From positions 1,943,501 through 2,007,500 of the forward strand of contig NZ_CP157794.1 of the NCBI RefSeq assembly GCF_040111675.1: a stretch of 64,000 nucleotides of DNA, read 5' to 3'. The stretch is from Salinarimonas sp. (lineage in GTDB: Bacteria; Pseudomonadota; Alphaproteobacteria; Rhizobiales; Beijerinckiaceae). A program made the position numbers and the translations under genes. Position 1 is the first letter of the stretch. Every line of letters begins with the position of its first letter. This document shows, one piece after another, positions 28,367-30,904 of this stretch. The notes under the pieces were generated by a model. That model was not told where the DNA came from, did no database searches, and saw only the letters and a list, made by a program, of their open reading frames with translations.

Positions 28367-28927
28367 TCACGCCGTCTCGATGTCGCGCTTGGCCGCCTTG
28401 GCGAACTTCTTCACCACGCGGTCGCGCTTGAGCTTCGAGAGGTAGTCGATGAACAGCTTGCCGTCGAGGTGGTCGATCTCGTGCTGGATGCAGGTGGCGA
28501 GGAGCCCGTCCGCCTCGCGCTCGACGAGCTCGCCCTCGAGATTGGTCCAGCGCACGCGAATGCGGGCCGGGCGCTCGACCTCCTCCGTGTAGTCCGGGAT
28601 CGAGAGGCAGCCCTCCTCGTAGAGACTGCGCTCGTCGCTGGTCCAGAGGATCTCGGGATTGACCAGCACCTGCGGATCGGCCTCGATCTTCGGCTCCTCC
28701 TCACCGTCCTCGGAGAGCACGGTCTCGCCTTCGATCTCGCGGCCGAGATCGATGACGACGAGGCGCTTGGGGACGCCGATCTGGATCGCCGCGAGCCCGA
28801 TGCCGCGCGCGGCGTACATCGCGTCGAGCATGTCCTCGGCGAGCGCCTTCGTCTCGGCGTCGATGCGCGCCACGGGCGTGGAGACGAGGCGCAGGCGGGG
28901 GTCGGGCAGCTTGACGATCTTGCTCAC
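28367..28927 (-). CDS. def: Peptide deformylase
   Basis: Metalloenzyme that removes the N-formyl group from nascent proteins. All three family motifs are intact: [19 protein letters not shown] with the metal-binding Cys, and [13 protein letters not shown] with HExxH. The 186-aa product includes an acidic insertion ([15 protein letters not shown]) between motifs 1 and 2. It lies upstream of fmt in the same run and follows the divergent deformylase paralogue. Confidence 0.96.
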
Positions 28928-29016: not shown

Positions 29017-29514
29017 TCACGCCCGGCGCAGCTTGTCCCAGCGCTTGACCGCGCGCTCGCGACGCACGCGGCTGAGCCGGCGCAGCCAGAAGATCCCGTC
29101 GCACTGGTCGATCTCGTGCTGCAGGCAGGCGGCGCGGAAGCCCTCCGCCGCCTCCTCACGGGCGACGCCGTCGAGGTCGGCGAAGGCCACCCGCACGCGC
29201 GCCGGCCGTTCCACCTCCTCGGTCACGCCCGGCGTCGAGACCGAGCCCTCGGTGAAGCGCGCGGTCTCGGCGGAGGACCAGGTGACGCGCGGGTCGCAAT
29301 AGATCGTCGGCGCGGGATCGCCCGGCAACTCGATCACCACGATCCGCCGCAGCGCCCCGACATGCGGCCCGGTGATGCCGACGCCGGGCGCCGCGCGCAT
29401 CGTCTCGAGGAGATCGTCGGCGAGGCGCCGCGTCGCCTCGTCCGGGGCGCCGACGGCCTCCGCAGGCGTCGAGAGCAGCGGGTCGGGCCAGCGGAGGATG
29501 GGGCGAACGGCCAC
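29017..29514 (-). CDS. Peptide deformylase paralogue lacking metal ligands
   Basis: A 165-aa protein that aligns over its full length with def but has altered active-site motifs. Motif 1 is GVGITGPHVG (Gln to His), motif 2 is TEGSVSTPG (metal-binding Cys to Ser), and motif 3 is LQHEIDQCDG (second His of HExxH to Gln). Two of the three metal ligands are therefore gone. I recall similar def-linked proteins with EGSVSMPG and HEIDQ in other Hyphomicrobiales, so it is probably a conserved pseudoenzyme. It could bind ribosomes or peptide N-termini without deformylating them; this is inference. It lies 89 bases upstream of def. Confidence 0.88.
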   Translation of the reverse strand: MAVRPILRWPDPLLSTPAEAVGAPDEATRRLADDLLETMRAAPGVGITGPHVGALRRIVVIELPGDPAPTIYCDPRVTWSSAETARFTEGSVSTPGVTEEVERPARVRVAFADLDGVAREEAAEGFRAACLQHEIDQCDGIFWLRRLSRVRRERAVKRWDKLRRA

Positions 29515-29517
29515 GGG

Positions 29518-30033
29518 TCAGGCCTCGGCGGAGGCGCGCTCGAGCAGGCTGTCGATGGCGGCCTGCGCGGCCTCGACGTCGGCCTCCTCGGGCAGCTCGA
29601 CCCCGCCGGAATTCAGGAACGCGCTCGCCTGCGCGATCAGGCGGCGAAGCGCCGGGCCGGTCACCTCGGCGACGGTCGCGGCCTCCTGCGGCCCGCAGGG
29701 CGGGCGCAGCGCGCGGATCGCGGTCGTGGCGAGGCGGTCCATGGCGGCGACGAGCGCCTCGAAGGCGACGCGGCGTTCCGCCGCAAGCGCGTCGTAGGCC
29801 GCGCGCGCCGCGGGGGCGCGGCGCAGCTGCGAGGCGGCGAAATAGGCGGGATAGTCGATCGGGCGCCAATCGGCGAGATCGGCTGCGGCGTCGGGATCGC
29901 CGGCCGCGAGCTCGATGAGCATCAGCACTTCGCTGAAATGGTTGAGGTAATCGTTCGACAGCCCGCCCGCGGCCGGCTCCGCGCCGGCGCCGGCAGGCGT
30001 CGTCGCCTCGATCTCGTCGCTCGAGCCTCGCAT
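29518..30033 (-). CDS. Conserved protein upstream of the deformylase genes, unknown
   Basis: A 171-aa soluble, largely helical protein. Its core reads LSNDYLNHFSEVLMLIELAAGDPDAAADLADWRPIDYPAYFAASQLRRA, followed by helices rich in Ala and Arg. I recall similar SNDYLNHFNE proteins in Hyphomicrobiales without function. The ATG at 30033 is preferred; upstream frame to 30171 would run into the divergent SRAP gene. It ends three bases before the deformylase-like gene, so it opens the run through truA. Confidence 0.72.
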   Translation of the reverse strand: MRGSSDEIEATTPAGAGAEPAAGGLSNDYLNHFSEVLMLIELAAGDPDAAADLADWRPIDYPAYFAASQLRRAPAARAAYDALAAERRVAFEALVAAMDRLATTAIRALRPPCGPQEAATVAEVTGPALRRLIAQASAFLNSGGVELPEEADVEAAQAAIDSLLERASAEA

Positions 30034-30148
30034 GCGCGTCGTGCGGTCGCCCCTCCGATTCTCGTGCGCATGGTGGCGGCGAGGCGCGAAAAAAGCGTTA
30101 CTTACGGAGCGCGCCGCGCCGGCGGCGCGCGAGAGGTGGGATGGTGTC

Positions 30149-30904
30149 ATGTGCGGCCGCTTCGTGATCACGCTCAGCCCCGAGGTCTTCCGCGAGGCGT
30201 TCGGCTACGAGGACCAGCCGAACTTCCCGCCCCGCTACAACGTCGCGCCCACCCAGCCGGTGCCGATCGTCGTGCGCGAGCAAGGCCGGCCCCGCTTCAA
30301 GCTGGTGCGCTGGGGCTTCCTGCCCTCGTGGGTGAAGGACCCGAAGGACTTCCCCCTCGTGATCAACGCCCGCGCCGAGACCCTGCTCGAGAAGCCCACC
30401 TTCAAGGCCGCGACGAAGCGCCGGCGCTGCGTCTTCCTCGCCGACGGCTTCTACGAGTGGCGGCGCGAGGGCCGGGTCAAGGCGCCGTACTTCGTGCGCA
30501 TGGCGTCGGGCGGGCCGATGCCGATGGCGGGGCTGTGGGAGACCTACAGCGACCCCGTCGGCGGCGAGATCGACACCGCCGCCATCGTCACCACCGACGC
30601 CAACGGCACGGTCGCGGCGATCCATCACCGCATGCCCGTGATCCTCGGCCGCGAGGGCGTCGCCCGCTGGCTCGACGTCGAGGGTGTCTCGGACGTTGAG
30701 GCGCGCGAGCTGACGAAGCCCTGCCCGGACGCGTGGCTCGACATGGTCCCGGTCTCGCCGCGGGTGAACAAGGTCGCCAACGACGATCCGGAGAACATCG
30801 CGCCTCTGCGCGAGGAGGCGCCCGCACCGGAGACGCCGCGCAAGACCGCGCGCGGGAGCGCGACGCGCTCCTCCGACGAGGACGGGCAGGGCTCGCTGCT
30901 CTGA
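30149..30904 (+). CDS. SOS response-associated peptidase (SRAP/YedK/HMCES)
   Basis: A 251-aa SRAP protein that shields abasic sites in single-stranded DNA by a covalent link through Cys2 (family knowledge). It starts MCGRFVIT, so processing exposes the catalytic Cys. Other conserved elements are YNVAPTQPVPIV with the Asn, RWGFLPSWVKD, INARAETLLEKPTF, CVFLADGFYEWRR with the catalytic Glu, and AIHHRMPVIL with the His. The last 25 residues are a disordered tail. It is divergent from the preceding minus-strand run. Confidence 0.95.
   Translation: MCGRFVITLSPEVFREAFGYEDQPNFPPRYNVAPTQPVPIVVREQGRPRFKLVRWGFLPSWVKDPKDFPLVINARAETLLEKPTFKAATKRRRCVFLADGFYEWRREGRVKAPYFVRMASGGPMPMAGLWETYSDPVGGEIDTAAIVTTDANGTVAAIHHRMPVILGREGVARWLDVEGVSDVEARELTKPCPDAWLDMVPVSPRVNKVANDDPENIAPLREEAPAPETPRKTARGSATRSSDEDGQGSLL

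Follow-up and report, generated by a model that had tools for sequence, protein, structure and literature searches.

The minus strand of the window, the whole 64,000-nucleotide stretch analysed here, carries at positions 29017..29514 a gene for a 165-residue paralogue of peptide deformylase (PDF), with a GTG start codon and a GAGG 8 bases upstream of it. We refer to the product as S/Q-PDF, a name given here to PDF paralogues with a His51/Ser91/His133/Glu134/Gln137 site. Pfam PF01327 matches residues 3-152, which make up the whole domain, at 126.1 bits (cut-off 22.8; E 1.2e-36), NCBIfam NF009484 scores 242.9 bits, above its curated cut-off of 190, and the alignment with the product of the neighbouring def gene (39% identity over 174 columns, E 5e-41) is far beyond chance. 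An AlphaFold2 model computed from an alignment of 31 rows (mean pLDDT 96.8, pTM 0.91) retrieved with Foldseek a set of best 50 solved-structure matches that are all PDFs, with TM-scores of 0.93 to 1s17 from P. aeruginosa and 0.93 to 1xen from E. coli; the predicted fold is that of a full-length, intact PDF.

Within this fold, S/Q-PDF departs from all three sequence motifs of active PDFs (EC 3.5.1.88). Motif I reads GVGITGPH, with His51 (codon 29362..29364, checked on the sequence) where canonical PDFs have Gln; motif II reads EGSVS, with Ser91 (29242..29244) replacing the metal-ligand Cys of EGC; and motif III reads QHEIDQ, an HExxQ in which Gln137 (29104..29106) replaces the second metal-ligand His of HExxH. 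The first His of motif III and the catalytic Glu are retained as His133 (29116-29118) and Glu134 (29113-29115), together 29113..29118, and just past this motif Phe142-Trp143 (29086..29091) occupies the place of the canonical Leu-Phe, all codons lying on the minus strand. Because all three defining motifs fail, the label of active peptide deformylase is not appropriate for S/Q-PDF. Gly46, Glu89 and Arg103, which belong to conserved PDF motifs or the cleft, are kept, and the predicted model and conserved contact residues mark a basic C-terminal helix (residues 149-164; 29023..29070, minus strand) as the counterpart of the ribosome-docking helix of E. coli PDF. The first-pass annotation of this DNA had described the sequence correctly throughout, namely the Gln to His change in motif I, the Cys to Ser change in motif II, HEIDQ and the full-length similarity to def, and the 89-base spacing to def that it gave is exact.

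The canonical def gene on the far side of that gap (28367-28927, minus strand) encodes 186 residues with EGCLS and HEIDH intact, and its product carries about 18 residues more than S/Q-PDF between motifs I and II. The tandem that had been pointed out is true of this genome but is not conserved even in the genus. Of the two other species sampled, one (G020) has def on the opposite strand, about 15 kb from the S/Q gene, and in the other (G060) the distance is 164 kb; the arrangement in the window is therefore a local rearrangement. A recent tandem duplication of def is ruled out by the 39% identity, the separate ancient clades and the synteny. Neither a second PDF gene nor a common neighbour was found in 80 named S/Q loci, read with flanks of up to 6 kb on each side; the S/Q gene is usually free-standing, with variable neighbours, and these loci yield no conserved operon partner as a clue to function. 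All three species of the genus that were sampled keep a canonical def. The genome from which the window comes holds two more PDF genes (3269461-3269922, L002, and 5251091-5251546, L004), both with Cys and HExxH-type ligands, the second reading DDCMSLP and HELDH, for a total of four PDF-family genes.

Upstream, an uncharacterised open reading frame on the same strand (29518-30171 as a whole; 171 residues, 29518..30033, from its likely start) has no Pfam or NCBIfam match and ends 3 bases before the start of S/Q-PDF. The distance of 3 bases from its stop to the GTG, together with the GAGG 8 bases before the GTG, is as in a translationally coupled pair, and the two genes stay paired in every one of the three species sampled within the genus (65% identity for this reading frame). 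Its homologues are present in 45 of 118 genomes of the family, some of them without the S/Q gene (for example G034 and G036), and we set it aside as a functional clue because it is a neighbour at genus level only. Beyond it lies a divergent gene (30149..30904, plus strand), which we take to be SRAP-like (YedK) from its MCGRF start; the arrangement is the same in the same-genus species.

Distribution and maintenance of the S/Q subfamily

Of 119 genomes from the GTDB family of this organism, 33 have a match to NF009484 of at least 225 bits (range 225-281), the lower matches that were read being canonical PDFs; most genomes of the family lack the S/Q gene. Searches of the order and class used a profile built from 30 S/Q members. 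This profile found 52 of 297 genomes of the order at 213 bits or more, the next match standing at 197.6, and 13 of 385 genomes of the class at 226 bits or more, the next match standing at 195.5; all 24 matches from a phylum-level draw that leaned to relatives fell within the same order. Carriers in the order include Rhizobium, Sinorhizobium, Ensifer, Neorhizobium, Mesorhizobium, Aminobacter, Bradyrhizobium, Xanthobacter, Azorhizobium, Ancylobacter, Microvirga and Chelatococcus, and those outside it Gluconacetobacter, Neomegalonema and Tistrella. The subfamily is at home in Hyphomicrobiales and a few other Alphaproteobacteria, many of them soil- or plant-associated. Some copies, such as those on pTM2 of Tistrella and paAMD1 of Aminobacter, are located on secondary replicons, as would suit an accessory gene. 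No close phage relative was found, the best phage match being 43%.

Two database records deserve a comment. The S/Q-PDF on a contig titled Bacillus subtilis SK6B4 (JAHREI010000005.1, L106) is typical of Hyphomicrobiales, so that the contig probably represents assembly contamination, and the record of Sinorhizobium meliloti Ak57 labelled pSymB (CP090106.1, L208) is 3.72 Mb long, that is, chromosome-sized, and its replicon label looks wrong. Since this gene-bearing "pSymB" is chromosome-sized and holds two PDF places, we dropped an argument on essentiality from the removal of pSymB in S. meliloti (PMC4207669). A nodule-competition hit in the same species, "COG0242 peptide deformylase" (PMC8407117), is assignable to neither paralogue, and the non-deletability of def in M. 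extorquens (PMC8153426) was likewise set aside as an argument, since that strain may or may not carry the S/Q gene.

The 74 S/Q members included in a tree form one clade with an SH-aLRT support of 97, and of 99 when ten motif columns are masked; since the clade persists under masking, it does not owe its existence to the changed motifs. On these sequences, the subfamily is an old, singly derived group of type-1-like PDF paralogues. Pairwise NG86 dN/dS ratios lie between 0.10 and 0.34 in 18 of 19 pairs and reach 0.42 in one very close pair, and the gene is under purifying selection. That S/Q-PDF might be a decaying duplicate of def is hardly credible in this light: the absence of the gene from most family genomes would suit such a history, as would two of about 90 copies checked that are split between frames (L192 in G018 and L193 in G050, which may be decayed or mis-sequenced), but the idea is contradicted by replacements that are invariant among relatives, by low dN/dS and by the single ancient clade. 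Neither the scattered substitutions nor the relaxed selection of a pseudogene was found. The first-pass annotation had proposed a maintained protein and had named scattered decay in relatives as one finding that would speak against it; the 163 relatives compared below, with their invariant replacements, instead uphold the proposal.

A rebuilt active site and a retained docking helix

We compared 163 S/Q members with 40 canonical alphaproteobacterial PDFs site by site. Exactly five positions are constant in each group yet different between them: 51 (Gln to His), 91 (Cys to Ser), 137 (His to Gln), 142 (Leu to Phe) and 143 (Phe to Trp), the S/Q residue being present in 163/163 members and the canonical one in 40/40 PDFs. 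This constancy stands against a median pairwise identity among S/Q members of 59% (minimum 44%; 97 clusters at 80% identity). Invariance of Gln137 is partly by construction, as HExDQ served to sort the members and that Gln is included in one of two peptide patterns with which named carriers were gathered; HExDQ is, however, present in every hit of at least 213 bits that was read, two frameshifted copies apart, and in the 84 genes that came from the profile search alone His51 and Ser91, which were not used in sorting, are likewise invariant. No intermediates with one or two of the three changes were seen in this sample. Conservation of SVSxPG and HEIDQ in Hyphomicrobiales relatives, which the first-pass annotation had suggested looking for, is thereby borne out. 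Glu89, Gly90, Arg103, His133, Glu134 and Asp136 are the same throughout both groups, and most S/Q members additionally show a shifted pocket lining (Ala to Thr48, Leu to Val92, Ile to Met94 and Glu to Gly96).

The exchange of Gln and His is reciprocal, in that two His and one Gln are kept, with the Gln now at the motif III position and a His at that of motif I. In canonical PDFs, the motif I Gln hydrogen-bonds the formyl carbonyl (PMC13131673), and the metal of solved PDFs is held by the Cys and both His of motif III (PMC5591237); a site rebuilt among these residues must, to judge from its sequence, differ in metal binding, which need not mean that it is empty. An earlier description of the protein as having lost two of its three metal ligands is accurate as regards the Cys and one His, but loss of the metal itself is not established, as there is a new invariant His51, Gln137 occupies the old His position, and His133 and Glu134 do not vary. 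A changed metal site or a changed chemistry appears as compatible with these data as a dead site.

The C-terminal helix was examined by mapping the E. coli contacts through a shared numbering offset of one. To dock on the ribosome, E. coli PDF uses Leu149, Lys150, Arg153 and Lys157 as contacts to uL22 and Lys160 and Arg163 as contacts to 23S rRNA, as described in a survey of accessory PDFs (PMC12690207). S/Q members have Leu, Val or Ile at position 150, Lys or Arg at 151 in 163/163, Arg or Lys at 154 in 163/163 (Arg is found at this position in only 28/40 canonical PDFs), Arg or Lys at 158 in 159/163, Lys or Arg at 161 in 162/162, and mostly Arg or Lys at 164 where it is present. Helix 149-164 thus has the C-terminal contact residues expected of a ribosome-docking type 1 PDF, positions 150, 151, 154, 158 and 161 being conserved in kind, and its net charge is +7.1 against +5.6 in canonical PDFs. 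Because the contact residues are kept and the charge is higher, docking of S/Q-PDF on the ribosome is likely. The retained helix thus gives substance to the exit-tunnel docking that had been suggested for this protein, docking itself standing as a likely property.

Possible functions of S/Q-PDF

Our preferred reading, which we hold tentatively, is that S/Q-PDF is a ribosome-docking PDF paralogue whose rebuilt and constrained active site performs an altered or slow chemistry, with little or no canonical deformylase activity. The site changed as one unit (Gln to His51, Cys to Ser91, His to Gln137 and Leu-Phe to Phe-Trp) and has stayed invariant since. S/Q-PDF would dock at the exit tunnel of the ribosome, either alongside PDF or instead of it, where its retained pocket may take N-formyl-methionyl nascent chains or a close analogue. 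The cluster of His51, His133, Glu134, Gln137 and Ser91 could hold a metal with changed ligands, two His with a Gln or Ser rather than the Cys and two His of PDF, or could work on or position the formyl group metal-free; most probably its reaction with N-formyl ends would be slow, conditional or altered, not that of a canonical deformylase, and the net effect might be to tune how fast, or which, nascent chains get processed. We favour this account because the five positions are fixed despite a median identity of 59% and because His133 and Glu134 never vary, where a protein retained for its surface only would be expected to drift. The single clade, the purifying selection, the more basic helix and the confident match to the PDF fold speak for it as well. 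Against it, buried core residues can stay invariant without catalysis, and the loss of two ligands predicts a loss of ordinary metal binding and activity (PMC5591237). A bolder version, rather unlikely in our estimation, would make S/Q-PDF a new ribosome-docking enzyme, with or without a metal, in which the Gln/His exchange transfers a metal ligand out of motif III into motif I and which acts on formyl-Met or other N-acyl ends of a subset of nascent chains; many Hyphomicrobiales would then possess an enzyme that the name peptide deformylase conceals.

The missing Cys and His speak for a reading close to that of the first-pass annotation, which is quite possible: a maintained pseudoenzyme that would dock at the exit tunnel and bind formyl-Met without cleaving it, as a reader or as a competitor of PDF (or of methionine aminopeptidase), with the result that some nascent chains keep their formyl group for longer. 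The docking helix is kept and more basic and the pocket residues are retained, all of which such a protein would need, and a competitor of PDF could be useful as lowered PDF activity can help an alphaproteobacterium, the V54G change in def conferring formaldehyde resistance on Methylobacterium extorquens (PMC13131673). Invariance of both Glu134 and the three replaced residues is, however, more than binding alone needs, and the 80 named loci show no conserved partner gene. The coherence of the rebuild, with its reciprocal Gln/His exchange and shifts that extend to the pocket lining, could also point to a hydrolase that acts on some N-acyl substrate other than nascent formyl-Met and whose new metal site is formed from His51 and His133, and a stand-alone gene with variable neighbours would suit such an enzyme; we consider it improbable in view of the retention of Arg103, Glu89, Gly46 and the ribosome helix. 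More improbable still is an ordinary deformylase that tolerates the substitutions and is simply a second PDF, as the name of the NF009484 equivalog ("peptide deformylase") says. The high score to that family, and a trypanosome type 3 PDF with motif changes reported active in work cited in PMC12690207, speak for it, but the protein lacks the motif I Gln and, simultaneously, two of the three residues known to bind the metal, and the genus species that were sampled all keep canonical def as well.

S/Q-PDF may work in the manner of PDF at the ribosome. A conserved relative of PDF that had evolved separately and sat at the exit tunnel would add another stage to the handling of formyl-methionine, which acts as a signal with ties to protein quality control and, in the case of Methylobacterium, to resistance against formaldehyde.

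Comparison with known deformylases

NF009484 (PRK12846.1-5) is a family model that gives its best scores to the S/Q subfamily (225-281 bits in the 33 family genomes). Its name implies an active deformylase. The canonical PDFs L186 (207.9 bits) and L187 (205.2 bits) also pass its cut-off by a small margin, such that the label mixes two kinds of protein. Annotation by this model puts an active-enzyme name on proteins without the metal ligands. In every member checked, the residues that define the metal site are replaced, although the proteins bear the name of an essential enzyme and antibiotic target.

Type 3 PDFs (archaeal, trypanosomatid, and the accessory PDFs of S. aureus and S. pneumoniae) resemble S/Q-PDF in their motif substitutions, expected low or absent activity and accessory status, as set out in PMC5591237 and PMC12690207. 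S/Q-PDF differs from them in changing all three motifs in one fixed pattern and in conserving its C-terminal helix, type 3 C-termini being described as not conserved in length; this comparison is by published description, the tree being one of sequences other than type 3. The same 2025 survey of accessory PDFs reports motif deviations generally, inactive type 3 PDFs and Rhodobacterales clusters (PMC12690207); a keyword search of its main text returned no mention of Hyphomicrobiales, rhizobia or the S/Q pattern. Searches of open-licence literature for inactive or deformylase-like paralogues found nothing on the S/Q subfamily, and an account in a subscription journal is possible.

Rhodobacterales often have three clustered def genes, a situation whose rationale is called elusive in PMC12690207. 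The third gene of one such cluster, in Pseudorhodobacter turbinis (L207; NZ_CP039965.1, 3938-4474(+)), resembles S/Q-PDF in having Ser for the ligand Cys. It differs in reading EASPN and HQIDH, with Glu changed to Gln and both His kept, in retaining the motif I Gln, and in forming a long branch among canonical PDFs, outside the S/Q clade. L207 would represent a second, apparently independent lineage of altered PDFs.

With canonical type 1 PDFs (P. aeruginosa 1s17 and 1n5n, E. coli 1xen), S/Q-PDF shares the whole fold, the residues of the peptide cleft, the first His and the Glu of HExxH and the basic C-terminal helix. It differs from them in having Ser for Cys, Gln for the second His, His for the motif I Gln and Phe-Trp for Leu-Phe, and in forming a separate clade, and the subfamily offers a natural test of how a metal site can move within one fold.
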